A DNA stretch of 47,732 nt from Candidatus Schekmanbacteria bacterium (GCA_016188575.1 JACPHN010000064.1:1-47732), one strand, 5' to 3'; counted from the stretch's first letter, positions 2,670-18,208 are shown. The notes: generated from the sequence alone by a model not told the origin. Translations and numbers: made by a program.

Positions 2670-4803
2670 GTGACCGCAAAATTTTTCATCCTGGCTGCTC
2701 TTTTTTTCCTTTCGGTGCTCGGACACTCCTGCTCGCCAGCCGTGCGGGCAAAGAAAGCGCACCCTCCCGGCGATGGACCGGGTGCCCCGGACAAGGCGCA
2801 GGCGCCTGCTGACGCCGATCCCTATCTGTGGCTCGAGGAGATCGAGTCCGCGGAGGCGCTGGGCTGGGCACGCCACGAGAATGAGATGACCGAGAAGCGA
2901 CTGATCGGAGACGCGCGGTTCGCCGACCTCAAGAAAAACGCTCTCGACATCCTGCAGGCGACCGATCGCATCCCCTTCGGGCGGATTCGCGGCGGCTACG
3001 TCTATAACTTCTGGCAGGACGAATCCCACGTGCGTGGACTGTGGCGGCGGTCGCCGCTGGCATCCTACGTCGCACCCGAACCCGCGTGGGAGGACCTTCT
3101 CGACGTCGACGCACTGGCGGAAAAAGAGGGCGAGCCGTGGGTTCTCGCCGCCATCACGCCCGCCCCTGCCCCCTCGCTGCGGTGCATGATCTCGCTTTCC
3201 CGCGGCGGCAAGGACGCCACCGTCAAGCGCGAGCTCGACGTCGCTACCAGGACCTTCGTCGATGGTGGATTCGCGCTGCCGGAGGCCAAGTCCGAGGTGG
3301 CATGGGTGGACGCGGACACGCTCATCGTGGGCACCGACTTCGGCCCGGGCTCGCTGACCGATTCCGGCTATCCCCGCGTCCTGAAGCTATGGCGGCGCGG
3401 AACCGACCTCGCCGCGGCGCCGGTCGTCTACGAAGCCGCCGCGAGCGACGTCAGCGCGTTCACCCTCACGAGCTTCGCACCCGGGGGCAAGACCGTCATC
3501 GTCGGGCGCGCCGAAACCTTCTTCGAGAGCGCCTACGCGCTCCGCGACGACGACGGCACGCTGCATCCCGTGGCCTTCCCCAAGTCATCCGAGCTGCAGG
3601 CGGTGTGCGCCGATCAGGTGCTCGCGAAGCTGCGACAGCCCTGGCAGGTCGGCCAGCGGACGCTTCCTGCCGGGTCCTTGGTGGGATTGAGTATCGCTGA
3701 CATTCGCGCCCATCGCGACGCCGCCCCCCGGGTCGTGGTATTGCCCGAGGAGCGGACCACGATTCAGGAGGTCGTCGCGACGGCGGATCGCTTGCTCGTC
3801 ACGCTGCTGCGCAACGTTCAGGGCGAGGTACGCGCCTATCGAACCGGCACGAACGGCGAGTGGACCTCGGAGACGTTGGCGCTCCCCCAGGCGGGGACGC
3901 TGTCGGCATTCGGCGCGGAGCCGATGTCCTCTGCAGCCCACGACTCTGTATCTGAGCGACGGGATAACGCCGCCGCGCCTGGTCAAGTCGCTGCCGGCGC
4001 GCTTCGACGCCGCGGGGATGACGGTAGAGCAGCTCGAAGCGGCAAGCGCTGACGGCACCAGGGTCCCCTACTTCCTGGTGCACCCGGTGGGATGGAAAAG
4101 CGATGGCTCCAACCCGGTGATTCTCGAGGGTTATGGCGGCTTCGAGGTGCCAATGACGCCGTACTATGGGGCGCTGCGCGGCAAGCTGTGGCTGGAGCGG
4201 GGCGGCGCCTATGCGTTGGCGAACATTCGCGGGGGTGGGGAATTCGGGCCGCAGTGGCACCAGGCAGCGCTCAAGGAGCACCGGCAACGGGCCTTCGACG
4301 ATTTCATCGCGGTCGCGGAAGATCTCATCAAGCGGGGGCACACCTCGGCGCGGCGCCTCGGCATCGAGGGCGGCTCCAACGGCGGGTTGTTGGTGGGTGC
4401 GGTGCTCACCCAGCGCCCTGATCTCCTCAACGCGGTCGTCTGCAGTGTTCCGCTACTCGACATGTTGCGCTACCACAAGCTGCTTGCCGGCGCGAGCTGG
4501 ATGGCGGAGTATGGAGATCCGGACGACGCGGCCATGCGGCCCTTCATCGCCGCCTACTCGCCCTATCAAAACGTGCGAAAGGAACGTCACTACCCCGAGG
4601 TTTTTTTCTACACCTCCACGAAGGACGATCGCGTGCATCCCGGGCACGCGCGCAAGATGGTGGCGAGAATGCGAGAGCAGGGCCATCCGGTGCTCTACTT
4701 CGAGCACATCGAAGGCGGGCACGCCGCGGCCACGAATCAGGAGCAGCGGGCGCGCAGGTTTGCGCTGGAGACGGCGTATTTCATGCAAAAGCTGATGGAC
4801 TGA
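2670..4803 (+). pseudogene. Prolyl oligopeptidase (S9A), exported, split by a frameshift
   Basis: Cleaves peptides after proline. The GTG start at 2670 follows AAGGAG by 9 bases. A hydrophobic N-terminus (FFILAALFFLSVLGHSCS) points to export, perhaps as a lipoprotein although the lipobox is not canonical. The N-terminal part (DPYLWLEEIES and the propeller) is in one frame to about 3930. The sequence then continues at about 3937 one frame over, with TTLYLSDGITPPRL and the hydrolase domain. That half keeps the whole triad: Ser in GGSNGGLL, Asp in TKDDRVHPGHA and His in EGGHAA. A single-base indel therefore splits an otherwise well-preserved gene. It may be a sequencing error or a recent mutation. 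The 3' end overlaps the convergent gene ending at 4781 by 23 bases. Confidence 0.87.
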
Positions 4804-6445
4804 CGCCGACCGGCCTGGCGGCGGCAATGGGCCGGCGGCGGGCGGCGCGCCGGCGGCCCGCGAGCGCCGCGATCTGCGCAGATAGCAACGCCGCCGACAC
4901 GGCCCACCGACCGCCCGCGACGGTAACCGCGGGCACAGTCGCCGGCACGGCAAACTCGATCCGCTTGATCAAGAGCAACGCCGGCTGATCCCCGGCGTAG
5001 TCGAACATGTCCGCGTGATTTCGGTAGTCGCGGCCCGTCTTCGGCCCCGCCGCAGGATCGAGCCCGTCGCCATCCTGCTGCGATACATCCTTGAGCGCGA
5101 AGTAAACGGTCGTGCCCGCCCCGACGCTCGCCTCATCCGACGGCTGCAGCCGAAATGCCGCCCACACCGCGTTGTAACCGGAAGAATACTTCCGGAAGCG
5201 ACCGGTGTCGGTCGCCTCGATCTCGAACTGCGGTGCCGCCTGAATCAGCGCCGGCGTCGCGGCCGCAAACGATGCGTTGGTGATCGCCGCGAATGCGTAG
5301 CGAAGCTCATACGTGCCGTACCCATACCCTTCGCTCTTGTACTTGTCGTTGAAACTGACCTCCCAGAGCCCCGAGTCCGCGCGGAAGGTCACCGCGGGCG
5401 AGGCGATCGTCTCGTCATTCTGCGGCTCGGAGTCCGTGGTGAAGACGACCTCGTCCAGCCATACCGGATACGCCGCCGTGCCGATTCCCGTGTAGGGTCT
5501 GAAGGTGACGTACCAGCGAAAAAGGTTGTTGAAGTAGAGCACGCCGAGGTCACGAATCGCCCGGCCGGGGTAGTGGTAGAGCGAGGCATCGGAAAAGGAG
5601 TTGTTGTGCACGGGATGGCCGTCGAGAAGGACGTGCGCCCAGTCGCCGCCGTTGGTGTAGAGCTCGTGATACCAGTGCCCCGTGACGTCGGGTTCGCTCA
5701 GGTCATTGAGCTGCGGGTGGCCCGGCGGATAGAGGTCGACCTTCGGGATGTAACTGTAGGGGCCGACGCTCATCGTCGCGGCGACGTGCCGGCTCTCCCC
5801 GTCGTTGCGCAGGGTGGCGGGAGCGCGAACGTAGAAGCTGAGCCGGTTCGCTCCCTGGGCGACAGCAAATGGCACTGGCGAGCTCGTGGAGCTGTTGTTG
5901 CCGAAGTACAGCGTCGGGTGCCCCGCCGGGCGCGCCGAACCGATCGGGTCGTAGCCGGCGCCCACGAGCTCCAAGTACTCTTCCTTGCTCGTCAGCTCCA
6001 TTCCGACCGTGACCACCGATGAGTATGCGTCTGCCGGATCTTCGAGCGTTTTTCCGCCGGTGACGGTGAGGCGAAGACTGCGACCGGATACCGCGGTGCC
6101 GGCATCCACTTCGAGGTAGCCGTAGGTTGCGAAGCCCATGTGGACGCTGTTGTAGGTGTTGAAGTAGTAGGAGATCTGATCACGTATCGCGCTGTCGGTC
6201 GTATACGGAGTGAGATTCCAAAAACCGCAGCGCGGTATCGTCTCGTAGGGATTGGTCCGGGAAGAGGAGTAGGTCCACCCGCCGCCGCCCGCCGGAGCTT
6301 CCGACGCACCGGTGGGTGGGAAGTCGTCGAAGGTCTGAAACGGGGCGGCACGTGCCGCAACGGCGCCGATGACCACCCACAGCAGCGCGCCGGCCACCGC
6401 CACCCGGGCCCTTCGCTTCCACTGCAACGCATGCCCTGCGGACAA
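4781..6445 (-). CDS. Secreted protein with C-terminal hydrophobic/Arg-rich anchor, unknown function
   Basis: About 554 residues. I prefer the TTG start at 6445: GAGAGGAGG sits just upstream and the product then opens with a compact signal peptide (KRRARVAVAGALLWVVIGAVAARA, cleaved before APFQ). An ATG at 6508 would only add a basic extension without a ribosome site. The mature region is rich in Tyr, Gly, Ser and Asn, with beta-type segments (YLEVDAGTAVSGRSLRLTVTGGK, GVLYFNNLFRWYVTFRP), as in extracellular beta-sandwich or carbohydrate-binding proteins, but I recognise no family. The end has a hydrophobic stretch followed by GRRRAARRR, like a sorting or anchor tail. The divergent M23 gene at 6675 ends similarly, so the two may be exported by the same route. 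Confidence 0.75.
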   Translation of the reverse strand: MSAGHALQWKRRARVAVAGALLWVVIGAVAARAAPFQTFDDFPPTGASEAPAGGGGWTYSSSRTNPYETIPRCGFWNLTPYTTDSAIRDQISYYFNTYNSVHMGFATYGYLEVDAGTAVSGRSLRLTVTGGKTLEDPADAYSSVVTVGMELTSKEEYLELVGAGYDPIGSARPAGHPTLYFGNNSSTSSPVPFAVAQGANRLSFYVRAPATLRNDGESRHVAATMSVGPYSYIPKVDLYPPGHPQLNDLSEPDVTGHWYHELYTNGGDWAHVLLDGHPVHNNSFSDASLYHYPGRAIRDLGVLYFNNLFRWYVTFRPYTGIGTAAYPVWLDEVVFTTDSEPQNDETIASPAVTFRADSGLWEVSFNDKYKSEGYGYGTYELRYAFAAITNASFAAATPALIQAAPQFEIEATDTGRFRKYSSGYNAVWAAFRLQPSDEASVGAGTTVYFALKDVSQQDGDGLDPAAGPKTGRDYRNHADMFDYAGDQPALLLIKRIEFAVPATVPAVTVAGGRWAVSAALLSAQIAALAGRRRAARRRPIAAARPVGVSPSAFA

Positions 6446-6674
6446 CCGCGCCTCCTCTCCGTGCCACGCCCAGAGCGCGCCGCGCCGCACCTGGCGGACG
6501 CGCGCCATCAGGGAATTCGTAGGCGGCTGCGGGCGCAGATGCAAGAGTGCGCCCGCCTTTCGGGTCACCGTGAGTTGCGCGCCCGGAAGCCAGCGTGTAG
6601 AGGTACCCTTTGCAACCTCGGCCGCAACACGGCACGCCCATATCCCCCACTGCAACACGGAAAGGCGGGCTCCC

Positions 6675-8084
6675 ATGCACGATCAGGCGTCTCGGACATA
6701 CGGGTGTAGGCGGAGACCACGGGCAAACGGCGCACTGGCGCTGGCCATGATGTGGGTGAGCGTCCTGGCGGGGTCGCTCGGCGCGGCCGGCGCGCACGCC
6801 ACGTCCCTTGATCCGGACGGCGGTGGCCGCCACGCAATTCGCAGGACCGCGCCCTGCCTCAGCGCGGCAGCCCGGTTGCGGGTCGCCGCCCGCCTGCGCG
6901 CCAACGTCGAGGCGTTGCGCCGGCGCGGCCTCCTCCCGCCCGGGCGCGCGACCGAGCCCGCTGTGGCTCGCGCTGTGGCGATGTCCTGGCCCGTGGTGGG
7001 CGCTACCGGCCTGACCGCGCCGGGCGTTCACGGCATCGGAGCCTTCGTCGATCACGATGCGACCTATCCAGATCACCTCCGCGACTACTCGTGCGGCGGT
7101 CGCAGCTACGATGTGTCGTCCGGCTATAATCACCAGGGTACGGACATCTTCTCCTGGCCGTTCTCATGGTACCGGATGGATCGCGACGAGATCATCGTGC
7201 TCGCCGCCGCCCCCGGAACGATCGTAGGCAAGGATGACGGCAACTACGACCGCAGTTGCGGTTTCGGCAGCACGCCATGGAATGCCGTCTACGTGCAACA
7301 CGGCGACGGCTCGACAGCGTGGTACGGGCACCTGAAATCCGGCTCGTTGACCACCAAGGACGTTGGAGAAACCGTCGCGGCCGGCGAGTACCTGGGCGTC
7401 GTCGGCAGCTCCGGGTCCTCGACCGGTCCTCACTTGCACCTCGAGCTGTATGACAGCGCGGACCGGCTCGTGGATCCATATTCCGGCCCGTGCAACGACA
7501 CGATCGGCACAAGCTGGTGGGCGAATCAGCGGGAGTACTATGACTCCGCGATCAACCTGATCGCCATCCACTCGGCGCCGCCCGAATTCCCGGAATGCCC
7601 CGAGCCGGAGGTCCCCAACCTGCAGGACGTGTTCGCGCCCGGTGATGACGCGTATTTCGCCGCCTACTACCGGGACCAGCGGGCGAACGAGAGCAGCACC
7701 TACACCGTCGTGAACGCCGCGGGCACGGAGGTGTGGCGCTGGGACCACAGCTCGCCCGCGGAGTATTATGAGGCTTCCTACTGGTACTGGATGCGGCGCC
7801 TTCCGACAGACGGCGTGCACGGGAAGTGGTGGTATCGGGTAACGTATTTGGGGCGGGAATACGAGCACGAGTTTTGGGTGGGCGACGCCCCGACGCCGAC
7901 ACCGACCGGCGATGTGACGCCGACGCCAACGGCGGGGGGATCCGTGCCGAGCTCGGGGCAGGGGTCCGGGTTGACGCTCGTGGCGCTCATGGGGCTGGCG
8001 CTGGCCGGACTGATACGGCGGCACCGCGGCCGGCGTTGCGTCCCAGCCCGGGCGGCGGTACACTATCGCGCCGCTGAGATGTAG
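6675..8084 (+). CDS. Secreted M23 metallopeptidase with C-terminal anchor-like tail
   Basis: Zinc endopeptidase of the LytM/lysostaphin family, expected to cut peptidoglycan cross-links or another glycine-rich substrate outside the cytoplasm. The 469-residue product begins with a signal peptide (GALALAMMWVSVLAGSLGAAGAHA). The M23 zinc ligands are visible: H153 and D157 in NHQGTDIF, and H253-L-H255 in GPHLHLEL, with GSSGSSTGPHLH before them. Residues ~310-400 form an extra domain of unknown type. A short Thr-Pro linker follows, then PSSGQGSG, a hydrophobic helix and RRHRGRR, a tail like PEP-CTERM or IPTL-CTERM sorting signals. It is divergent from the secreted gene at 4781-6445. The end of the gene contains the promoter of the next gene. 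Confidence 0.85.
   Translation: MHDQASRTYGCRRRPRANGALALAMMWVSVLAGSLGAAGAHATSLDPDGGGRHAIRRTAPCLSAAARLRVAARLRANVEALRRRGLLPPGRATEPAVARAVAMSWPVVGATGLTAPGVHGIGAFVDHDATYPDHLRDYSCGGRSYDVSSGYNHQGTDIFSWPFSWYRMDRDEIIVLAAAPGTIVGKDDGNYDRSCGFGSTPWNAVYVQHGDGSTAWYGHLKSGSLTTKDVGETVAAGEYLGVVGSSGSSTGPHLHLELYDSADRLVDPYSGPCNDTIGTSWWANQREYYDSAINLIAIHSAPPEFPECPEPEVPNLQDVFAPGDDAYFAAYYRDQRANESSTYTVVNAAGTEVWRWDHSSPAEYYEASYWYWMRRLPTDGVHGKWWYRVTYLGREYEHEFWVGDAPTPTPTGDVTPTPTAGGSVPSSGQGSGLTLVALMGLALAGLIRRHRGRRCVPARAAVHYRAAEM
8036..8064 (+). promoter_or_regulatory. Sigma70-type promoter upstream of the SpoIIE-type phosphatase gene
   Basis: TTGCGT, 17-base spacer, TACACT. It lies within the last codons of the M23 peptidase gene. 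The predicted start near 8071 would give a leader of about 60 bases before the ATG at 8132. Confidence 0.5.
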
Positions 8085-8131
8085 AAGGTGCGCGCGGCAC
8101 CTGCGCCGTGACCTGCCGGAGGAGATCGCCG

Positions 8132-9151
8132 ATGCATACCGCGTTGCTGCACAGAGCCCATGACCAGCTACTGGATCGCCGCCGGCGGCTCGCGGATTTG
8201 GTAGGCGAGGTCGGCGACGGCGGCGACCTCGTCACCCTGCTGCGGATGGTTGACGCGGCGCTCGAGCGAATCGACGGGGGGACGTACGGGAGTTGCGCCG
8301 TGTGTCAGGAGACCATCGACGAGGACACCCTGATGCGCCACCCGCTCATCGAATACTGCCTGTGCCGCCTCAACGCGCATCAGGTGGGAGCGCTCGAGCG
8401 TGACTTGCAGCTCGCCGGCCGCGTGCAATTCGCCGTCCTGCCGCCGCCGGCGGTGCGCTTGCCGGGGTGGCTCGGCCATTTTCGCTACGTGCCCCATGGC
8501 GCGGTGAGCGGCGATCTGTGCGATCTCGTTCCCGATCCCTCCGGCGCGGGTCGCTTGACCTTCATCGTCGGCGATGTCTCCGGCAAGGGCGTGGCCGCTT
8601 CCTTTTTGATGGCGCGGCTGAGCGCGCTGTTCCGCAGCCTGGCGGAATCGGGTCGAGCAGTCTCGGAAATCCTGGACACGGTGAATCGGCACATTTCGGA
8701 GACGACCTTGCCCTCGCACTATGCTACGGTGGTCTGCGGCCGGGCCCACGAGGACGGGACGGTGGAGATCGCCAACGCCGGGCACTGTCCGCCGCTCGCG
8801 ATCCGCTCCGGCAAAGTGGCCGAGATCGGCGGCGCCAACGTGCCGATCGGCCTGTTCGAGGCAACGCGATACGCCACCGAGACCCTGTGGCTCGCCCCGG
8901 GCGACAGTCTCTTCCTCTACACAGACGGTTTGACAGAGGCGAGAAACCCAGCGGACGAGGAGTTTGGAGAGGAGCGCCTGCGCGACTATCTGGAATCTGC
9001 CGCGGCGACGAATCCGGCGGCCATGTTGGCGGGATGCTTGCGCGAGCAGCGGGAGTTCGCCGGGCCGGACGCCGCGGGTGATGATCTGACCGTCATGGTG
9101 CTGCGCCGCGACCACGCCGAGGGCGACGCCCGCACGGCTTGGGCGAGTTGA
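8132..9151 (+). CDS. PP2C/SpoIIE-type phosphatase with N-terminal DksA/TraR-like zinc finger
   Basis: Probable Ser/Thr phosphatase of the RsbU/SpoIIE class, usually acting on anti-sigma antagonist proteins in partner-switching pathways. The ATG at 8132 follows GGAGGAG by 7 bases. Residues 1-80 are a helical hairpin followed by a cysteine finger (GTYGSC55-AVC58 ... IEYC76-LC78) that resembles the DksA/TraR C-terminal finger, though the second pair is CxC rather than CxxC. Residues ~90-330 are the phosphatase, with metal-binding aspartates in GD128LCD131 and D148 in GDVSGKG, FLYTDGLTEARN, and D in GDDLTVMVL. No anti-sigma kinase or STAS antagonist gene is adjacent. The combination of finger and phosphatase is unusual. 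Confidence 0.87.
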   Translation: MHTALLHRAHDQLLDRRRRLADLVGEVGDGGDLVTLLRMVDAALERIDGGTYGSCAVCQETIDEDTLMRHPLIEYCLCRLNAHQVGALERDLQLAGRVQFAVLPPPAVRLPGWLGHFRYVPHGAVSGDLCDLVPDPSGAGRLTFIVGDVSGKGVAASFLMARLSALFRSLAESGRAVSEILDTVNRHISETTLPSHYATVVCGRAHEDGTVEIANAGHCPPLAIRSGKVAEIGGANVPIGLFEATRYATETLWLAPGDSLFLYTDGLTEARNPADEEFGEERLRDYLESAAATNPAAMLAGCLREQREFAGPDAAGDDLTVMVLRRDHAEGDARTAWAS

Positions 9152-9212
9152 GGAGCGCGCCGCCGCTGCCAGGATCCTGAGCGCTTCGCCACATCAGGCA
9201 GCGACTCCGGTT

Positions 9213-9244
9213 GCCAAGCTCGGGGCTTGGCGTGCGCCTTTTTT
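9213..9244 (+). terminator. Probable Rho-independent terminator
   Basis: A perfect 7-bp hairpin (GCCAAGC / GCTTGGC, 5-base loop, 9213-9231) is followed after seven bases by a run of six T (9239-9244). It lies about 60 bases after the phosphatase gene and would end that transcript. Confidence 0.5.
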
Positions 9245-9307
9245 CGTCAGGGGCTTTTCCTGCCGCTAGCAGTCGAAGCGGCGGGGAGCTCGAGACGTGC
9301 CACCACC

Positions 9308-9336
9308 TTGACATCCCGCGCCATCGGCAGCACGCT
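9308..9336 (+). promoter_or_regulatory. Possible promoter for the membrane metalloprotease-like gene
   Basis: A perfect TTGACA at 9308-9313 stands 17 bases before a poor -10 (CACGCT). It is the only -35 match in the 279-base gap before the gene at 9431, so it is offered with low confidence. Confidence 0.3.
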
Positions 9337-9430
9337 AGCGGCCGCAGGCCGCGGAAACTCGGCCGGCGCTCAGAGGTTAACACCGGTCAGGTCTCCTGCC
9401 CCATGAACCGCCGTCGTGAGGGATCGTGAA

Positions 9431-10126
9431 ATGAGTTGGAAGCGTCTTCTCGTCAAGTGGCTGCTCATTCTTTCGATCTTTCCGCTCACGACCTTTTATC
9501 ATGAGTGCCTCCACGGCATCGCCGCCGAGCTCACGGGCGGCACCTGGGAAGGGCTCACTTTGAACTTTTACGACTGGCACTACTATGCCGCCAAACCGTT
9601 CGAGCTGCTGACGCTCGGTTTCATCCAGATCGAAAAAATCGCGCCCCCGGACGGACCGTATGCCGCCGGGTTCGCGCGTATTCTCGGTGGGCGCCTGACC
9701 CATCTGGTCAGTGCCGCAGCGCCGAATTTCGCATTCGCGTTTCTTGGCGCGTACCTCCTGCTGGGCTGGCTGCCTTCCCGCTGGGACGCCTCCGTGGGAA
9801 AGGTCAAACAGCTCGCCGAGAAAGTGTGCAGCTCCGCGGTCGGTGCGTATCTGATCTATCAACCGTACGAATATGGGAAGATCACGCTGACCTCGAGTGC
9901 GCTGGCGCCGGGAAACGACTTCGGTCTCATTATCCACTTTCTGGGGCTCGCGGGACAGAACCCCTCGCCATTGCAGGCCATGCTCGGCTGGATCCTCTGC
10001 GTCGGCGCCGCGCTAGCCGCCGCGTTTGGCACGCACACGATCGCGGGTCGCTTGATCGGGTGGCGGGCGCGCCGCGTGGCGACGCGGCAAACGAGCGCCC
10101 GGAAGCGGGCCCCTGCAGCGCCGTGA
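9431..10126 (+). CDS. Integral membrane protein with HExxH motif (M50/site-2-protease-like)
   Basis: 231 residues with about four to five hydrophobic segments (KWLLILSIFPLTTFYH, FAFAFLGAYLLLGWL, DFGLIIHFLGLAG, MLGWILCVGAALAAAFG). H24-E-C-L-H28 at the end of the first segment matches the zinc-protease HExxH. A later segment, LGGRLTHLVSAAAPNFAFAF, resembles the small-residue/Pro-Asn region of M50 intramembrane proteases. The third metal ligand is not obvious, so protease activity is an inference. The ATG at 9431 is chosen over an in-frame GTG at 9416 because GAGG lies 9 bases upstream. It stands alone between a terminator and a kinase gene. The C-terminus is basic and cytoplasmic by the positive-inside rule. 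Confidence 0.7.
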   Translation: MSWKRLLVKWLLILSIFPLTTFYHECLHGIAAELTGGTWEGLTLNFYDWHYYAAKPFELLTLGFIQIEKIAPPDGPYAAGFARILGGRLTHLVSAAAPNFAFAFLGAYLLLGWLPSRWDASVGKVKQLAEKVCSSAVGAYLIYQPYEYGKITLTSSALAPGNDFGLIIHFLGLAGQNPSPLQAMLGWILCVGAALAAAFGTHTIAGRLIGWRARRVATRQTSARKRAPAAP

Positions 10127-10451
10127 GCAGCGCCGCGCTTGACACTCGGCCGGGCCGCTTGTACTCTAGCGATAGTTCGCGGGCGGCCGCTCAGGGCGAT
10201 CAGCAACGCGAATTGCTTCAAACCGCGGAGCCGGGCCTCGATGACATTCGGCAACGCTTCCCACGCAGGGATCGTGCCTGTGCTCTCGCGCCGCACAGCG
10301 GCGCGGCGGCTCGGGCAAGCGGTACTTCCTTCGCGCTCCGCTGCCGCCGCCATCAGCGCCATGTTCACTTCAAACCCTTTCTCGCAGACGGCTCGCCGCG
10401 GCCGCGCCCGCACCCGTGGGACGAGCCCGGTCCCCGTAGCGAAGCAGCGCC
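10127..10451 (+). other. 325-base region upstream of the DUF4388 kinase gene
   Basis: No convincing gene. A promoter-like site lies at 10139-10167, which would give an untranslated leader of about 280 bases. Short open frames here have no ribosome sites and protein-unlike composition. I recognise no riboswitch fold. Confidence 0.4.
10139..10167 (+). promoter_or_regulatory. Sigma70-type promoter, probably for the kinase gene at 10452
   Basis: Perfect TTGACA, 17-base spacer, TACTCT (TA...T conserved). It begins 12 bases after the stop of the membrane protein gene and implies a long leader before the kinase. Confidence 0.45.
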
Positions 10452-12860
10452 ATGAGTAATCGCGACCGCATCGGGCGATATCTGCTCGTCGATGAGATCG
10501 GAATTGGCGGCATGGGTGCCGTCTACCTCGCGTACGACACCATTCTCAAACGCGAGGTGGCGCTGAAAACGATGATGGCGTCACTGATCCGCGATGAGCG
10601 ACTGCGGCGCCGCTTCTTCATCGAGGCCCAGTCGGCCGGGATCCTCCATCACCCCAACGTGGTCACCATCTACGACCTGGGCCACGACGACCACGGCTGT
10701 CCCTACATCGCCATGGAGTTTCTCACCGGCCTGGATCTGGACCAGGTCATCAGCGAGAAGCGCCGCCTCCCGCTGAGCAAGAAGCTCGACATCATCTTGC
10801 AGGTCTGCCGCGGCCTCGCGTACGCGCACGCGAACGGTATCATTCACCGCGACATCAAACCATCCAATGTCCGGATCCTCGACGAGGGTCTGGTCAAGAT
10901 CATGGACTTCGGGATCGCCAAGCTTGACAGCACCGAGGTTACCAACACGGGGTACGTGGTCGGCACCCCGCATTATCTGGCTCCGGAAATTATACGCGGA
11001 CAAAAGGCGGATGCGCGATCCGACGTTTTTTCCGTGGGCGTGCTGCTCTACGAGCTCGTTTCGTTCAAGAAGCCGTTCGACGCCGACAATCCACACGCCA
11101 TCCTCTACCAAATCACCAACGTCGACCCCCAGCCGCTCATCGAGCTGGACAGCTCGATTCCCAAAGCGCTGTCGGACCTCGCCGCCAGGGTGCTCGCCAA
11201 GGACGCCGCCGAACGATATCAGACGTGCGACCACCTTGCCGATCAGCTCCAGCGGGTTTACGCCGCCGCCTATGCCCGGGAATCCCGGATCCTGGCCTCC
11301 CTGCACGCTTCGGAAACCGATATGTCGGGCACTGGACAGGCTTTCGAGCTGAGCACGTCCCTCCGGGAAGCGTTGCGCGATACACCGGCCGAGCCCGACC
11401 TCGCGGACTCCCCCGCCGGGCGGCGTCGCGGGCTGGTCGACGTGAGCGCTACACCGAGCGGCTCCGGCGTGTCCCAGCTCGTCGAAATGCTGCTCGACAA
11501 CCTCCAGCTCTCCATCCCGGATACCAGCAGCACGCGCAATCCGGGCCCGCCGGTGCCTTTTCTGGCGCTCGACGTGCTGGAAGAGATGTGCCGGACTCAC
11601 TACTCGGGCGTGGTGACAGTCAGCCTCGGCAGCAAGAAGAAGAGCTTTGTCGTGCGCCAGGGGTCGCTCATTCTTTGCCAATCCACCGAGCCCGACGATG
11701 ACGTCTGGGCGAGCCTGCTGCGGCGCAATGTGATTTCTGCGACACCGCCGGAGCAGGCATCCTTTCGCAAGGCGTTGTCGATCAGTCTCCTGCAGGGGGA
11801 GCTCAGCCTGGAAGCCTTCAAGTCCGCATACCGTGAAACGCTGGAGTCGGCTTTCCTCGGGCTCTGGGATTGGCCAGGTGCCCTCCTGGAAACTCACCAC
11901 CGCGAAATCGGCAAGACGCCGCTTGTGGTCGTGCCCGCGGCGTCGCTCATTGTGCGCCTGTCCATCGACCGGGTCGACTATGCCACGGTGCGCTCGCCCG
12001 ACAACAGTGGGTTCCTGGTCACGCCGCTCGAGCCCTTCAAGCAGGTGATTTCCACCTTGAGCCTGAAGCCGGAAGAGGGCTACCTTGTGGCGATCATTCA
12101 GTCAGAGTCCGTGAGCTTGCACATTCTGCGCGTGCTGACGGGGCTCTCGGAGGAAACGATCTGCCGGTTCGTGTTCGGGTTGTCGCGCGCGGGAGCGGTC
12201 AAGCTCCAACCGGAGGAATCTCCCGCGGCCCGCATCAGACGCGCCACGCCGATACACGTGCCGCTGCCCGCGGACCTTCCGGTAGATCTGCCCGAAGAGC
12301 TGCCGGCCGAGCCGTCCCGCGCTCGCGCCGCGGGAAACAATCGGGGTTCGGACCCCCCACAATCCATGGGGGGGCCCGCCGCCGGCGGTGGACTGGTCAT
12401 TGTGGATATTGAAAAACAGGACCGCAAGGCCCTCATCCAGAGCCAGCTCGAGGAAGCAGCGGCCCTGCGCAAGCGGGCCGAGGCCAGTCTGGCTGCCGGC
12501 GACTACCAGTCCGCCATCGACTTCTGCAAGCGGGCAACTCGCCTCGTCCCGGATGACGCGGCATTCTACGCGCTGCTGGCCCGAGCTTACGCGGCACATC
12601 CCAAGTCCAAGCGGCATGCGGAGAGGTATTTTCACGAGGCGATCGGCCTGGATCCGTCAAACGTCACGTACCACCTCGAGCTCATTCGCCTGTACTTGCA
12701 AAGCTCGCTGCAAGTAAACGCCCGCACGCATTGCTTGCGCATCCTGCAGATCGAGCCGGGAAATCGCGTCGCCCAGGCGCTGCTCAGGAAGCTCGACGCC
12801 CCGGAAGTGGGGCCGGGCGACTGCTGGTGTACGGGAGCGAATCGCTCCGCGATCGGGTGA
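10452..12860 (+). CDS. Hanks-type Ser/Thr protein kinase with DUF4388-like and TPR regions
   Basis: Signalling kinase of 802 residues, probably cytoplasmic since no membrane helix is visible. Residues ~8-275 are the kinase: glycine loop EIGIGGMG, K39, catalytic HRDIKPSN (D134), MDFG (D152) and an activation segment ending GTPHYLAPE. Residues ~375-560 resemble DUF4388, beginning FLALDVLEEMCRTHYSG with a beta-rich SFVVRQGSLILCQS. This is a module common in deltaproteobacterial regulators. A Pro-rich linker follows, then TPR-type helices at ~665-785 (AGDYQSAIDFCKRATRLVPDD, RYFHEAIGLDPSN). The TPRs suggest docking of partner proteins. It runs convergently into the CsgG-like operon with only 42 bases between stops. 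Confidence 0.92.
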   Translation: MSNRDRIGRYLLVDEIGIGGMGAVYLAYDTILKREVALKTMMASLIRDERLRRRFFIEAQSAGILHHPNVVTIYDLGHDDHGCPYIAMEFLTGLDLDQVISEKRRLPLSKKLDIILQVCRGLAYAHANGIIHRDIKPSNVRILDEGLVKIMDFGIAKLDSTEVTNTGYVVGTPHYLAPEIIRGQKADARSDVFSVGVLLYELVSFKKPFDADNPHAILYQITNVDPQPLIELDSSIPKALSDLAARVLAKDAAERYQTCDHLADQLQRVYAAAYARESRILASLHASETDMSGTGQAFELSTSLREALRDTPAEPDLADSPAGRRRGLVDVSATPSGSGVSQLVEMLLDNLQLSIPDTSSTRNPGPPVPFLALDVLEEMCRTHYSGVVTVSLGSKKKSFVVRQGSLILCQSTEPDDDVWASLLRRNVISATPPEQASFRKALSISLLQGELSLEAFKSAYRETLESAFLGLWDWPGALLETHHREIGKTPLVVVPAASLIVRLSIDRVDYATVRSPDNSGFLVTPLEPFKQVISTLSLKPEEGYLVAIIQSESVSLHILRVLTGLSEETICRFVFGLSRAGAVKLQPEESPAARIRRATPIHVPLPADLPVDLPEELPAEPSRARAAGNNRGSDPPQSMGGPAAGGGLVIVDIEKQDRKALIQSQLEEAAALRKRAEASLAAGDYQSAIDFCKRATRLVPDDAAFYALLARAYAAHPKSKRHAERYFHEAIGLDPSNVTYHLELIRLYLQSSLQVNARTHCLRILQIEPGNRVAQALLRKLDAPEVGPGDCWCTGANRSAIG

Positions 12861-12902
12861 CTCCGCCGGCTTTCGCACGCCGGACGGCTGACGGCGATGC
12901 GC

Positions 12903-13655
12903 TCACGGGGCAATCACGGCCCGTCGCAAGGTCGAGACCGCCTGCTCCACCGCGGCACCGGTTGCGCCTGCGACGCTGCCGGGGTCCAGGCCGCCCAATC
13001 TTTGGAGCGCCGCGGCGGCGCTCGCCCCGAGCTCCAAGTCCACCTCACCCATGCCCATGGCCGCGCCAGCGCGCCCGGAGCTTCGCTCGACGATGCGCAC
13101 CTGGATGCGCACCCTGGTCGCGAGCCGGACGCCGCCGGAAATCCCAGTTACGGTTTCTGCTCGCTGCGTCACGACATCAACGATTTCCCCATACACGAGG
13201 TAGGCCACCGCGGCGGCCGGAGCGTCGGTATTCTCCTGACCTGTAGCTCCGCCCGCCCCCCGCGCGAGCTGTTCCTGAACCCGCTCCGTAACGTCGGCCT
13301 TTTCTTCCACCAGCCGGAACAGACCACTGCCATACAGCGCTTCGACCACGCGCTCCGCCACCCCGAAACCGACTTGCGGCTCGACCAGACCCGGATACGC
13401 GGCAAGAACCGCCGCCGAAATCCCGAGCTCCACAACGTAGGCGCGCACGGGAAGATCCTCCCTCCGCAGCGTCAGACGGTCCGCGTAACCGTCCTCTTGT
13501 CTCCATGGCATCTCTGCTTCCGGGGGTCGGGCCACCGTCCCCGCGCAGCCGAGGCCGAGCACCACCTGCGAGCAGCAGCCGACGCCGACAAGCAGAAGCG
13601 CGAGCGGGCCCCGATTGGCACGAGCCGGAGGCTGCAGCCCACTGTTACCTCCCAT
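12903..13655 (-). CDS. CsgG-like exported lipoprotein, third copy
   Basis: 250 residues. The ATG at 13655 follows GGAGGAGG and overlaps the end of the previous gene by 11 bases. The N-terminus is basic, then hydrophobic, ending VLGLGCAG, a lipobox-like site that predicts lipidation. The mature part shares the first copy's pattern almost phrase by phrase: AAYPGLVEPQVGFGVAERVVEAL, then GLFRLVEEKADVTERVQEQL, then YLVYGEIVDV and a VRIQVRIVERSSG strand. This is the CsgG/LpoB-type alpha-beta fold, in which a leading strand precedes a helix carrying the variable-protein motif and a G-F-x-V-E-E strand. In CsgG such proteins form an outer-membrane export pore. Whether this one does is unknown, and TolB-N or LpoB-like proteins have related folds. 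It is the last gene of the operon. Confidence 0.68.
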   Translation of the reverse strand: MGGNSGLQPPARANRGPLALLLVGVGCCSQVVLGLGCAGTVARPPEAEMPWRQEDGYADRLTLRREDLPVRAYVVELGISAAVLAAYPGLVEPQVGFGVAERVVEALYGSGLFRLVEEKADVTERVQEQLARGAGGATGQENTDAPAAAVAYLVYGEIVDVVTQRAETVTGISGGVRLATRVRIQVRIVERSSGRAGAAMGMGEVDLELGASAAAALQRLGGLDPGSVAGATGAAVEQAVSTLRRAVIAP

Positions 13656-14382
13656 ACGCCTCCTCCCACTCCGGCATTAGCGCGTTAAAGGCGGCCACGA
13701 GCGCCTTGTCGACCGCCTGAGCCGGACCGGCTTCATCGAACGCGACCTCGTTACCGCGATACTCGACCCCCACCCCGTATACGGTCGTCGAGCTTTTTCC
13801 CTCGCCGGGCTTGCAAAGCTGCAGACGATCTGCCCCATGCGCGCAAACCGTCAGCGCGACGCGGTAGCTCCACCGCCGCGCGCTGAAAAAACCCGATACC
13901 TGATCCTGTGTCACGCCCACGTACTCCAGCGTCCCGGCAATGACCCAGTCCGCCGTCGTGGATACCCGCAGGCGCTCGATCTGCTCGAGCGACTCCGCGC
14001 TGGCCTCCGTAAGCCAGTAGCCGGCAGCAGCCTCCTGAATGGACGCCGCCAGCGTTTTCTCCTCGACGAGCGAAAAGGCGCCGCTGTCGTGGACAAACTG
14101 TGCCAGCCGGCCCCGAATACCCATGCCGAGGCGGGCTTCTCGCCACTCGGGGGCATCCACGCGACTGCGCAGACCGAGGACAACGGCGCGCGGAGCCGTC
14201 TTCGGCCCGGCGCCGCCCGGTTCGCCCGCGGCCGGCTGGGCTCCGGCGCCGCTCCTGATCCCGAGGCCGCAGACCACGGCCAGAGCGGCGATTGCCAGGC
14301 AGCGCCCACCGACATGGTTCCAGGCGCACCCGGCGCTACCAGCGTGTGCTCGTCCCAAATGTAATTGCCGTGCTCTTGACAT
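13645..14382 (-). CDS. CsgG-like exported protein, second copy
   Basis: 245 residues. The signal peptide is RCLAIAALAVVCGLGIRSGAGA, cleaved before QPAAG, with no lipobox cysteine, so it is probably periplasmic. The mature part begins with a strand (RAVVLGLRSRV). It continues ARLGMGIRGRLAQFVHDSGAFSLVEEK, the same helix plus G-F-x-L-V-E-E element as in the two neighbouring paralogues, then ADWVIAGTLEYVGV, equivalent to their YVIYGEVYGF. The ATG at 14382 lies 47 bases inside the upstream barrel gene and has no clear ribosome site, so the true start may be a nearby TTG. Overlaps with both neighbours indicate translational coupling. Function is inferred from the family only. Confidence 0.65.
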   Translation of the reverse strand: MSRARQLHLGRAHAGSAGCAWNHVGGRCLAIAALAVVCGLGIRSGAGAQPAAGEPGGAGPKTAPRAVVLGLRSRVDAPEWREARLGMGIRGRLAQFVHDSGAFSLVEEKTLAASIQEAAAGYWLTEASAESLEQIERLRVSTTADWVIAGTLEYVGVTQDQVSGFFSARRWSYRVALTVCAHGADRLQLCKPGEGKSSTTVYGVGVEYRGNEVAFDEAGPAQAVDKALVAAFNALMPEWEEAYGR

Positions 14383-15424
14383 CTTGAAGTCCGAAGAGTC
14401 CGCGCGCGCCCAGTGCCAGGGCGAACCGCGGACTGATGTAGAAGCTGAAAATGCTCCCGACCGTGTAGAACACATCGGAAAAACTGTCGGGCCTGAGCAC
14501 CTTGACGCCGTACACGTCGAAATCGACCGCGAAGCGGTCGGCGAATGGCACGCCGAAGGCCGCGCCGGCTCCGACCGAGGCGGTATCCTCATCCTTGCCG
14601 TAGCTCGCCTGACCGACGACCCCGCCGCTCAGCGCCATGCCATTTGCAAAAAACTTGTTGACATACACCTTGGCATTGCCGCCGAGCAGTGTGGAGTCGA
14701 AGGTGACCGCATCGAGGTGCGTTACCGCCAATCCCAATGTCCATCGCACGATCCGCTCGCGGCCGATCGTATGGCCGAAGAGCATGTTGAGGTTGGACAG
14801 CGACGTCTTGTCCGATGCGCCATCGGGCTCCGCCTGCTGGTGGCTGAGGTTGAACCCGAACAGACCGCCGCCTTCGCTCTGCCGCACCCAGTTGAAGCGC
14901 GCCCCCAGGGTCGTGCCGTCAATGGTCCCGGCCCCGAGCTTGGTGTAATCGAGCGACCAGCTTTCCCGTTCGAGGTTGGTCGTCATCGTCGAGAACTGGT
15001 AGGCTCGCCGCTTCTTGGCCGCCTGCACGCCGGGTTTGACCTCCTCCTCTCCCTCTTCTTCGTCGCCTGCTTCCTCCGCCTCGAGGTCCCGCCGCAGCAG
15101 GCGGGGCGCCGCACCCTGGCGGATCTCGCCCGCGAAGATGTTGTAGGAGCCGATGAAGGTCGGCGCGAGCGTCGAGGTGGCCAGCGGATCGTTCAGCGCC
15201 CGGTCCGGACAGGCGTCGGGCCAGCGCCCGACCTCCTCACAGTTGTCGTCCAGAGCGTCCCAGCATTCCTCCCCGGCCTGGCTGACGCCGTGGCAGTGCC
15301 ACCCGAGCTTGCCTGCTCCGCAGCTTTCGCCGATGCAGTAGTCGCCGTGAGCCGTCCCGGCGAGCAGCGCGAACATTCCGCAGATGACTCCAATTCTCAT
15401 CGGGAAGCGATCGAAGTTCCTCAT
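14336..15424 (-). CDS. Putative outer-membrane beta-barrel protein of the CsgG-like operon
   Basis: 362 residues with a signal peptide (RIGVICGMFALLAGTAHG). A Cys-rich segment follows (DYC...ESC...HCHG...EECW...DNC...ACP), then an acidic/basic linker (EEAGDEEEGEEEVKP). From ~145 to the end come alternating amphipathic strands (SWSLDYTKLGAGTIDGTTLGARFNWV, GGLFGFNLSHQQ, RWTLGLAVTHLDAV, FFANGMALSGGVVGQASYG). The chain ends in an aromatic residue (TSTRW), the signature expected for Bam-dependent barrels. An AAGGA ribosome site lies 6 bases before the ATG, which overlaps the upstream stop (ATGA). It sits among three CsgG-like genes, so it may form the outer-membrane part of the same assembly; that is inference. 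Confidence 0.65.
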   Translation of the reverse strand: MRNFDRFPMRIGVICGMFALLAGTAHGDYCIGESCGAGKLGWHCHGVSQAGEECWDALDDNCEEVGRWPDACPDRALNDPLATSTLAPTFIGSYNIFAGEIRQGAAPRLLRRDLEAEEAGDEEEGEEEVKPGVQAAKKRRAYQFSTMTTNLERESWSLDYTKLGAGTIDGTTLGARFNWVRQSEGGGLFGFNLSHQQAEPDGASDKTSLSNLNMLFGHTIGRERIVRWTLGLAVTHLDAVTFDSTLLGGNAKVYVNKFFANGMALSGGVVGQASYGKDEDTASVGAGAAFGVPFADRFAVDFDVYGVKVLRPDSFSDVFYTVGSIFSFYISPRFALALGARGLFGLQDVKSTAITFGTSTRW

Positions 15425-16116
15425 TGGTTATCCTTCTCCAGTTTCTGGGAAAATCGCTCCAGCAGTGTGGGCACAGCGGCGTCGAGCGCGCGAACGGTCG
15501 CCTGCCCTACGGTGCTCGCAGCAAAATCCGCGGAGCCCGCGCTCACGCCGTCGGCGAGCGCGCCCGTGGCGGTGCCGCGCGCCGAAGCGGGGACGTACTC
15601 GGCGGTCTCCACGTCGATCATGCGAAGCTGGAGCTCGACGCTGGTTTCGCCGCGATCCCCTGCGCCACTCGTCGCGAACCCGTAGACTTCTCCGTAGATC
15701 ACGTAACGAGCGCCGAGGAGCCGCCCGAGCTCGAGGGCGCCTTCGGCCGCAACCGCGCCGCTGGAAGCGAGCCACTGCCGCTGCAGCACATCTTCGACTA
15801 CCTCGGGCTTTTCCTCCACGAAGCGAAACCAGCCCGTCTCGTAGAGCGCGTCCACGATCGCGTTATGCACGCCAAAACCAACCTGCCGCTCCGTGAGCCG
15901 CGGATAGCGAGCCGCGGCCTGCGCGGTCAGGCCCAGGGGCAGCACGGCCACCGGAATCGGGTCACCGCGGCGCGCGGGATACTGCGGGCGCGTCCGCGGC
16001 GGAGGTCCCTCGTCGACGGGGTCCACCGTCCGCGTCCGGGTCGGGCATCCCGAGACCCCGGCCAACACGGCCAAAAGAAGCATCGCCGCCACACCCATAC
16101 GCGCTCGTCCACTCAC
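15421..16116 (-). CDS. CsgG-like lipoprotein, first copy
   Basis: 231 residues. The GTG at 16116 has GGAG upstream. A lipoprotein signal ends at LAGVSGC, followed by a Pro/Arg linker. The mature domain opens with the CsgG-like strand PVAVLPLGL and continues YPRLTERQVGFGVHNAIVDAL, then GWFRFVEEKPEVVEDVLQRQ, then GARYVIYGEVYGF and VELQLRMIDVETAEYV, ending in a long amphipathic helix (TVRALDAAVPTLLERF). This matches the CsgG-family layout, although CsgG itself is about 260-280 residues. It starts 16 bases after the stop of the oligopeptidase gene and its stop overlaps the barrel gene start, so all five genes form one transcription unit. LpoB- or TolB-N-like folds are alternatives. Confidence 0.7.
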   Translation of the reverse strand: MSGRARMGVAAMLLLAVLAGVSGCPTRTRTVDPVDEGPPPRTRPQYPARRGDPIPVAVLPLGLTAQAAARYPRLTERQVGFGVHNAIVDALYETGWFRFVEEKPEVVEDVLQRQWLASSGAVAAEGALELGRLLGARYVIYGEVYGFATSGAGDRGETSVELQLRMIDVETAEYVPASARGTATGALADGVSAGSADFAASTVGQATVRALDAAVPTLLERFSQKLEKDNQ

Positions 16117-16132
16117 GATTTCCTACTCCTGT

Positions 16133-18208
16133 TCACGGCGCCACGCCGAGTTGCCACCACAGAAAACCCAAATCGTCCGCAGCCTGCTCGATCCGCTTGT
16201 TGTGAGGCGTCCCCGGCCCATGCCCGGAATCGCGTTCGACGCGAAGCAGAATCGGCCGAACGCTGGCGGGAGCCGACGTCGCGGCCTGCAGCGCCGCCGC
16301 CATCTTCCGCGCGTGCAGGGGATGCACGCGACAGTCGTTCTCCGCGCTCGTCAAGAGCATCGCCGGGTAGGCGATGTCGGCCGCGACGCGATGGTAAGGC
16401 GAATATCGCCAAAGCCACGCGAATTGCTGCTCGTCCTCCGAGCTGCCGTACTCGGGAATCCAGTACCGCGCCATGAGAAATCGGTGATACCGCAGCATGT
16501 CCAGCAGGGGGACGTGGCACACGACCGCGCGCGCGAGCTCCGGTCGCTGCGTGCCGACCGCCGCGACCAGGAGCCCGCCGTTGGACCGTCCCACCAGACC
16601 GAGGCGCTCGGGGCACGTGTATCCTTCGTCGCAAAGGTATTCCGCAGCGGCGATGGCGTCATCGAACACGTTCTGCTTGTTTTCGAGCATCCCGGCGCGG
16701 TGCCACTCTTCTCCGCGCTCCCCCCCGCCGCGCAGATGTCCGAAAGCGTACACGCCGCCCCGCTCGACCCAGGCGGCGACCTCGGGGCGGAAGGTCGGCT
16801 CCATGGAGATTCCGAAGCCGCCGTACCCTTCCAGGACAGTGGGATTGTCGCCGCAGCGGCGCACGCCGTCCGCGTGAATGATGACCATGCCGACCTTCTC
16901 ACCGTCCCGCGAGCGGTACGTGACGTGCCTGATCACGGGCCGATTGGGGCCGACGGGAACGTCCGCCTGCCACCAGATGTCCATTTCGGCGGAGCGGAAA
17001 TCGACCTTGAAAATCGCGCGCGGCTCGACGTAGCTCTCATGCGCGAGGAATCCGCCGGTGCGGTCCGCATTGGCGCTCAGGGTCGCGCTGCCCGCGCCCG
17101 GCACTGGTAGCTCGCCGAGCGCCGTTCCGTGCAGATCGAAACGGTCGATCCGGCTGACGGCGAAAGACGTGGAGCATACCAGCACCAAGCCGCGCGCAAG
17201 GATAACCGCGCCGATGGCGGCATCCCGCCGTGCGGCCAAGAATGGCCGCCAGCGGTCGCGCTGGGGCGCGTTCAGATCGACGGCGTAGATCATGCCCATG
17301 GGGGCGCCGAGAGTCGTGCGCAGATACAGCGTGTCTCCGTGCACCGGCCCCGCGAAAGTCGCGCGCTCCCCGACGGCGATCTCGCGCCGGAAAAACGCAC
17401 CGGTCCGCCGCCACTCGTCGAGGTCGACGACCCACAGGTCGTTGGCATCGGTGCCGGTCGCGTAGGAGACCAGCAGCCATCGGCCATCGTCACTGATCGC
17501 GCTATCCGGCCCCCAGGTCGTCGAGTACTGTTCCAGAAAGACGGGATCGTGCCGGTAGTGAGTCCCGACGGCGTGAAAGCGGAGCGCGTAGGAGTACGGG
17601 TCGGTGCGCACCGAGCGCGAAAGGTAGAAGAACCCGGTGCCGTCAGCCAGCCACTGGACGCTCTGCACGCTGTTGGGGATGGCGTCGGCGCGCCAGCGCC
17701 CGGTGCCGGCGTCAATCAAGTAGAGCGTGTCGTGCTCGTCGCCGCGGTCGGCGAGACCGACGGCAACGAGGCTTCCAAGCGGGCAAGGTGCAAACCAACT
17801 CAGCGCCGCAAGCCCGCCCGGTTCGAGGCCGGCGGGGTCGAGGAGCAGGCGCGGCGAAGCCGCCGGCCCATCGGCGACCCACAGGCAATTCTGGTTCCGC
17901 CCGGCCTCCAGTCGCCTGAAGAAGAGGCGGTTGCGCCTCATCACGGGGAGCTCCACCAGGTCGGTGCGATAGAGCTCGGCAAGGCGGGTGGCGACGGCTT
18001 CCCGGCCGGGGATGGCGTCGAGACACTTTCGGGCGTAACGGTTCTGCGCTTCCGTCCACGCCGCGACGCGCTGATCGAGGGTCTCACTGGCACTGCCCGC
18101 GCACCCGTCCTCGCCTTCGAGCCACCGGTACGGGTCGCGCACCGGATGCCCAAAGTACACGTCCACGACGTCGTCGGTCGGGGTGACGGGATAGTCGTCG
18201 TTGCGCAC
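16133..18208 (-). CDS. Prolyl oligopeptidase family protein (S9A), intact
   Basis: 691 residues, close to the usual size of prolyl oligopeptidases. The GTG at 18208 is chosen because AGGAGG stands 9 bases upstream; the open frame runs 20 codons further without a ribosome site. The N-terminal PYRWLEGEDG matches the family DPYRWLE start, and a seven-bladed propeller region follows. The C-terminal hydrolase has Ser542 in GRSNGGLLVAAV, Asp in ENDCRVHPLHARKM and His in ERDSGHGPGTPH. It has no signal peptide, so unlike the copy at 2670 it should be cytoplasmic. It heads the CsgG-like operon. A link to processing exported peptides is possible but speculative. Confidence 0.92.
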   Translation of the reverse strand: MRNDDYPVTPTDDVVDVYFGHPVRDPYRWLEGEDGCAGSASETLDQRVAAWTEAQNRYARKCLDAIPGREAVATRLAELYRTDLVELPVMRRNRLFFRRLEAGRNQNCLWVADGPAASPRLLLDPAGLEPGGLAALSWFAPCPLGSLVAVGLADRGDEHDTLYLIDAGTGRWRADAIPNSVQSVQWLADGTGFFYLSRSVRTDPYSYALRFHAVGTHYRHDPVFLEQYSTTWGPDSAISDDGRWLLVSYATGTDANDLWVVDLDEWRRTGAFFRREIAVGERATFAGPVHGDTLYLRTTLGAPMGMIYAVDLNAPQRDRWRPFLAARRDAAIGAVILARGLVLVCSTSFAVSRIDRFDLHGTALGELPVPGAGSATLSANADRTGGFLAHESYVEPRAIFKVDFRSAEMDIWWQADVPVGPNRPVIRHVTYRSRDGEKVGMVIIHADGVRRCGDNPTVLEGYGGFGISMEPTFRPEVAAWVERGGVYAFGHLRGGGERGEEWHRAGMLENKQNVFDDAIAAAEYLCDEGYTCPERLGLVGRSNGGLLVAAVGTQRPELARAVVCHVPLLDMLRYHRFLMARYWIPEYGSSEDEQQFAWLWRYSPYHRVAADIAYPAMLLTSAENDCRVHPLHARKMAAALQAATSAPASVRPILLRVERDSGHGPGTPHNKRIEQAADDLGFLWWQLGVAP

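Follow-up and report, generated by a model that had tools for sequence, protein, structure and literature searches.

A recurrent gene set of two CsgG-like protein types and a predicted outer-membrane barrel at a Candidatus Schekmanbacteria locus

Gene arrangement of the locus

The DNA analysed here, which we call the window, is a stretch of 47,732 nucleotides from Candidatus Schekmanbacteria bacterium (GCA_016188575.1 JACPHN010000064.1:1-47732). Five tandem genes, designated A (prolyl oligopeptidase), B, C, D and E in this order, occupy its minus strand from 18208 to 12903:

A: 16133..18208, minus strand; prolyl oligopeptidase (S9; PF02897 5.5e-58, PF00326 1.4e-50), a local neighbour outside the conserved module
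B: 15421..16116, minus strand; predicted lipid-anchored CsgG-fold protein of 231 aa (PF03783, LpoB, VSGC lipobox), module core
C: 14336..15424, minus strand; predicted 12-strand outer-membrane barrel with a pre-barrel helix, 362 aa (family profile A8, AlphaFold2 model), module core
D: 13645..14382, minus strand; exported, non-lipidated CsgG-superfamily protein of a second type, 245 aa (orthologues pass PF03783; D profile, tree), module core
E: 12903..13655, minus strand; second B-type CsgG-like protein, 250 aa (BLASTP to B 1e-18; B clade in tree)

A gap of 16 nt separates A from B, and the following junctions are overlaps of 4, 47 and 11 nt. In other words, the five packed minus-strand genes described in an earlier note on this DNA are real, and the note had their coordinates, strand and lengths (231, 245 and 250 residues for the CsgG-like proteins) right. 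No sigma-70-like promoter was found in this region and terminators were not in excess, in a scan that is uninformative in this organism.

The CsgG-like proteins

The earlier note had proposed a profile check of the three exported proteins. B scored above the Pfam cut-offs of both the CsgG model (PF03783; 48.2 bits, cut-off 20.8) and the LpoB model (34.9 bits, cut-off 22.3), so it is not the case that none of the three has a match. E matched no Pfam model; its membership in PF03783 follows from its 37% identity to B, with which its homology is clear (BLASTP 1e-18). The similarity of D to B and E is weak (BLASTP 1e-4 and 4e-5), and the window's D had no Pfam match; two D orthologues, at loci L048 and L074, pass the PF03783 cut-off of 20.8 (22.9 and 21.9 bits), and the relationship of D to B and E is supported through family profiles. 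We conclude that B, D and E are homologous to the CsgG superfamily.

A tree of 40 sequences divides these proteins into separate groups. E falls inside the B clade (98/96), the D-type proteins form a group of their own (90/91) apart from the B-type proteins and from other CsgG, and a third group (97/88) comprises the remaining CsgG proteins, the one from E. coli K-12 among them. The three different CsgG-like subunits of the earlier note are therefore of two kinds, i.e. a B-type and a D-type, with E as a second copy of the former. E was seen in the window's genome only, and no second B-type copy was seen beside B, C and D at any other locus. The common sequence elements reported for the three proteins stand in part: G-x-F-x-x-V-E-E-K is present in B, D and E, but Y-G-E occurs in B and E only, D having A-G-T at this place. 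Near the C terminus most D-type proteins carry a specific motif, roughly K-S-x-G-x-L-F-Q-I-R-x-D-x-V-x-F in the alignment.

The types also differ in their predicted anchoring. The lipobox of B has the standard form VSGC, and a lipobox is present in all 17 B-type proteins scanned. D-type proteins lacked one on scanning, save for one match that looks spurious, and there is none in the window's D. The suggestion that two of the three proteins are lipidated thus stands for B but not for a second protein, since the candidate lipobox of E, G-L-G-C, is non-standard.

The AlphaFold2 model of B, built on an alignment of 10 sequences, has a pLDDT of 76. Its best fold match is CsgG (Z 12.6, rmsd 4.5, 153 residues aligned), and the other matches are PelC (Z 11.0), the FlgT ring (10.9), TolB (9.6) and LpoB (8.2), where entries less than 1 apart in Z are regarded as tied. 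The predicted fold of B is the CsgG/TolB-N fold. D would likewise have, or be related to, the CsgG/PelC/FlgT ring fold, which in its case is judged from the sequence.

The predicted barrel protein

The window's C had no Pfam match, and the first 60 genomes searched yielded no relative; a family profile (A8) recovers a held-out copy from genome G151 at 1.7e-44, and two C relatives match PF13505. C is a member of a barrel family that has no name. The earlier note described C by a Cys-rich head and strands ending in an aromatic residue; a terminal aromatic residue is found in 19 of 19 C homologues, but the Cys-rich head (6 Cys) is a property of the window copy and not of the family.

The AlphaFold2 model of C is based on an alignment of low depth (7 sequences) and has a pLDDT of 65 overall, with block means of 64-89 in the barrel. 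It shows 12 strands over residues 145-361, preceded by helices at 80-101 and 108-123, and an N terminus of low confidence. The model matches the autotransporter translocators EspP (Z 23.4, rmsd 3.0, 247 residues aligned) and NalP (22.3), as well as the COG4313 channel (22.5), KdgM (21.1), NanC (about 21) and FapF (20.2). C is thus predicted to be a 12-strand barrel of the autotransporter/FapF type preceded by a helix, the N-terminal part being uncertain. Second C-family barrels that have no adjoining B or D were seen in two genomes (L092, 5514-6734; L093, 2828-4063).

Recurrence of B, D and C

A profile of B and E, run against 386 genomes, gave, apart from the window itself, a single strong relative; it is in G151, where B-, D- and C-like genes adjoin (pairwise 2e-10 for C and 3e-13 for D). 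A pattern scan with B and E alone found no relative; a contig scan with B, E and the G151 homologue gave eleven loci. B-family members are present in ten of these, which carry the labels Desulfuromonadaceae, other Deltaproteobacteria, KSB1, Bacteroidota, Chitinispirillum and Methylococcales. Additional searches yielded further loci, one around a Desulfuromonadaceae genome (277 genomes), one among 301 genomes of the order to which the Methylococcaceae genome belongs and one among 82 genomes from the phylum of the KSB1 genome. In all there are 19 loci, from Desulfuromonadaceae, other Deltaproteobacteria, KSB1, Bacteroidota, Fibrobacterota, Methylococcales and other groups. Most of them are from metagenome-assembled genomes, several lie at contig ends, and taxon names follow the records; ORFs were called mechanically, and start sites are uncertain, notably that of the L074 caspase discussed below. 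A search of plasmids gave no match, and a sequence search of solved structures gave nothing meaningful.

D adjoins B, or is separated from it only by C, in all 19 loci, and C is contiguous in 15. In L091 C lies about 8 kb off on the opposite strand, and in L075 and L076, where C is not contiguous, the contig stops at the operon. In the Methylococcaceae genome C is found on contig L094, which ends in the type of Cys-repeat gene that opens L078. This Cys-containing repeat protein (CQAPQVLQNGACVTPAPT; L094 3168-3855 and L078 1-870) is situated between C and D, and the assembly breaks there.

The order of the genes is variable: D-B-C in the desulfuromonads and L077, B-D-C in G151, B-C-D in KSB1 and the window, C-B-D in L074 and C-D-B in L118. 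The conserved five-gene order that the earlier note asked about is accordingly found only in a reduced sense, as the set of B, D and C recurs across phyla but its order is shuffled and the five genes are not kept together.

The 19 loci were gathered through B, and there are weaker B-like genes that have neither D nor C beside them, in G136 (L050, 4.9e-36) and G743 (L119, 1.6e-33); the B match in G931 (6.8e-36) is equal in strength to that in G136, and there D and C are both present. For this reason C was tested separately. Among 386 diverse genomes the C profile matched only the window's genome (G000) and G151, and these are exactly the two in which B and D are found. In view of the recurrence and of this separate co-occurrence test, we reject a chance grouping of unrelated genes. 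The set is patchy and rare and is spread over several phyla; G392, which shares its genus with G151, had no match. It is almost certain, in our judgement, that the conserved unit consists of B, D and C and not of all five genes.

Tandem CsgG genes in G234 (L049) were considered as a further member and rejected, as they belong to another cluster in which C and D are absent. In that cluster (4443-10226) the upstream genes resemble FlgT/LPP20 relatives.

Peptidases and other neighbouring genes

A contains both S9 domains with the active-site motifs GRSNGG, DCR and GHG, i.e. it is an S9 prolyl oligopeptidase with a propeller and a catalytic domain bearing Ser/Asp/His motifs, as its sequence indicates. 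The protein begins at the propeller, and an export signal is absent at its start. A second S9 prolyl oligopeptidase, with a lipoprotein-type signal, is present in the window at 2670-4803 on the plus strand; it is split over two frames (propeller 2670-4052, catalytic domain 4018-4803), which is either a frameshifted gene or an assembly error.

The earlier note had put a peptidase at the head of the supposed machine. The prolyl oligopeptidase is present at the window locus only, the other 18 loci having no S9 gene, while an exported caspase-type peptidase occurs in five of them; the idea is not borne out, and the prolyl oligopeptidase in front of the module is a local addition. The caspase domain (PF00656) is adjacent to the trio of B, D and C in L074 and L077; in L076, L078 and L118 it forms a fusion with B, on the C-terminal side of the latter. 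Its His and Cys motifs are kept in L076, L077, L078 and L118, and L074 has YYAGHG and DACFAG. The long Methylococcales fusions were also considered as B joined to the barrel, and this was rejected since Pfam gives B plus caspase. PADLOC found no defence match besides its generic caspase model on the fused or adjacent peptidases. In 13 of the 19 loci no peptidase gene was noticed beside the trio.

An FlgT_N-like gene is present in seven loci (L107 to L111, L071/L091 and L075), with Pfam scores under the cut-off (at best 28.3 against 28.8). In the window's genome an FlgT-like gene lies elsewhere, on contig C103, directly upstream of another CsgG gene; this FlgT-like gene (G000:C103:2937-4736) carries an in-frame TAG.

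The surroundings of the trio vary as well. In L118 (902-17001; G931, of the same taxonomic order as the Methylococcaceae locus L078) C, D and the B-caspase fusion lie, in this sequence, within a cluster of type VI secretion genes, with a VgrG-like gene on one side and FHA, VasE/TssK, DotU and IcmF genes on the other, and the trio is preceded by a protein kinase gene. In L091 a large envelope cluster (4307-18158) around the trio includes a FecR-TPR protein, a CHASE2 cyclase, an LPP20-like protein and a trypsin-PDZ protease. Near the trio of L078 (9260-10162) there are small secreted proteins with Asn/Ser-rich repeats (IKNSTILNASKNQNVTN), whose appearance is that of fibre or curlin-like subunits; they might serve as a substrate. 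The loci have no substrate gene in common.

Comparison with known systems

No description of the B, D and C set was found in the open-access literature on CsgG and related systems. Three systems provide precedents for its parts: in PelBC, the export system of the Pel exopolysaccharide, the PelC lipoprotein ring sits on the PelB barrel (PMC12141448), Fap export of functional amyloid employs the 12-strand barrel FapF with a helical plug together with a periplasmic Cys protease (PMC5557850), and HfaB, the holdfast anchor, is a CsgG relative that serves surface anchoring (PMC6707917).

The likeness to CsgG and HfaB consists in the PF03783 matches of B and some D orthologues and, for B, in the same predicted fold, the lipid anchor and a Tyr-Pro at the pore-loop position; unlike CsgG and HfaB, the module has short or missing hairpins, two protein types with a separate barrel, and no curli genes beside it. 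PelC has the fold predicted for B and is a lipoprotein whose ring sits on a separate outer-membrane barrel, whereas the module has two ring-fold types, a putative ring, a smaller barrel and no Pel genes that we noticed. PelB is a barrel with a TPR domain, and twelve PelC subunits make up the ring; C has 362 aa and no TPR match. FapF/FapD and the autotransporter translocators resemble C in having a 12-strand barrel with a helix before it, and a Cys peptidase is attached in some of our loci; the sequence similarity to C, however, is no more than about 8% in the fold alignment, and Fap has no CsgG-fold partners and a peptidase of family C39, not of the caspase family. The Fap export system further comprises a FapF trimer of barrels with a coiled coil in the periplasm, and FapB/C as substrates; what links C to it is the fold match. 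The flagellar H-ring proteins FlgO/FlgP/FlgT and LpoB share the TolB-N/CsgG-type fold, an FlgT_N-like gene accompanies seven loci and B is over the LpoB cut-off, but here there is a barrel component, no flagellar context was noticed and the FlgT-like gene is not constant.

Possible functions of the module

We consider B, C and D to be one outer-membrane module and probably one undescribed complex. A hetero-oligomeric envelope complex of CsgG-like proteins and a barrel would be a good reading of the clustering and co-occurrence. Because of the PelBC, FapF and HfaB precedents, we favour an arrangement in which lipid-anchored B and soluble, exported D would form a ring or collar beneath the C barrel, as in PelBC, and the ring and barrel together would be a conduit for export or envelope assembly. 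The attached peptidases, caspase-type on B and the prolyl oligopeptidase here, would process or regulate the substrate or the subunits. We give this conduit a chance a little short of even; ring formation, docking, gating, transport, substrate and peptidase roles are all matters that we infer. It is consistent with the presence of D beside B in 19 of 19 loci, the contiguity of C in 15 of 19 and the finding of C in the same two of 386 genomes as B and D, and also with the predicted folds, B matching CsgG/PelC/FlgT and C matching autotransporters/FapF. Against it stand the missing common substrate gene, the lone second C copies in two genomes (L092, L093) and the low confidence of the modelled C N terminus.

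A curli-type (type VIII) channel, in which B and E would build a CsgG pore through which an amyloid subunit passes, could be proposed from the PF03783 match of B, and Tyr-Pro occupies the place of the CsgG pore-loop tyrosine (Tyr51; PMC6957492) in 18 of 18 aligned B-type sequences, E included; it is absent from D, and L118, not among the 18, has Phe-Pro. In the alignments, however, the first hairpin segment, 28 residues long in E. coli CsgG, has only 14 in the window's B, and the second has 17 in desulfuromonad-type B against 38 in CsgG. With one hairpin short in the window's B and the other missing from desulfuromonad B proteins, a CsgG-type pore is not to be expected from B; as B appears to lack two transmembrane hairpins of CsgG length per subunit, a curli-type pore is unlikely. 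The earlier note saw none of CsgA/B/E/F at the locus, and no curlin, CsgE or CsgF was found among ten neighbouring window proteins scanned. The channel as a whole seems to us very improbable. Passage of a polysaccharide by way of the C barrel and a B/D ring seated on it, in the manner of PelBC, would suit the match of B to PelC (Z 11.0) and those of C to KdgM and NanC, two oligosaccharide porins (Z about 21); since no polymer synthesis gene was noticed beside the trio in the loci read, and C has no TPR part, unlike PelB, we regard it as improbable.

Alternatively, the B/D collar may be a scaffold that links the outer membrane, the peptidoglycan and the C barrel without transport, like FlgO/FlgP/FlgT at the flagellum or LpoB with a peptidoglycan synthase. 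The LpoB score of B, the FlgT ring among its best fold matches and the seven FlgT_N-like genes point in this direction; on the other hand, these genes score under the Pfam cut-off, an FlgT-like gene is missing from 12 of 19 loci and lies elsewhere in the window's genome, and a pure scaffold would not usually include a 12-strand barrel, which leaves the proposal rather unlikely. The module might also sense or anchor at the outer membrane and control an exported peptidase in a damage or contact response. The caspases fused to B (L076, L078, L118) or adjacent (L074, L077) with their catalytic motifs kept, the L118 trio among type VI secretion genes and the oligopeptidase gene at the front of the window's operon would agree with such a role, but the 13 loci in which no peptidase gene was noticed beside the trio do not, and the window's oligopeptidase is different in kind and has no export signal; we think this role quite unlikely.

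Implications

CsgG-family matches are often taken as curli, and yet most PF03783 matches in a survey were not curli (PMC3521004). The sporadic set of three proteins gives a defined list of partners and a testable architecture of two ring-fold kinds with a barrel of their own. If this architecture holds, it would carry the PelBC arrangement, a ring seated on a barrel, over to proteins combined in a new way; in some lineages it would also link the outer membrane with a bacterial caspase, whose target could be sought there. Returning to the favoured conduit, one may ask whether it represents an undescribed class of outer-membrane secretion machine, with a mixed ring of two CsgG-fold types on an autotransporter-like barrel and exchangeable peptidases, patchy across distant phyla; we regard this as possible, if somewhat doubtful.
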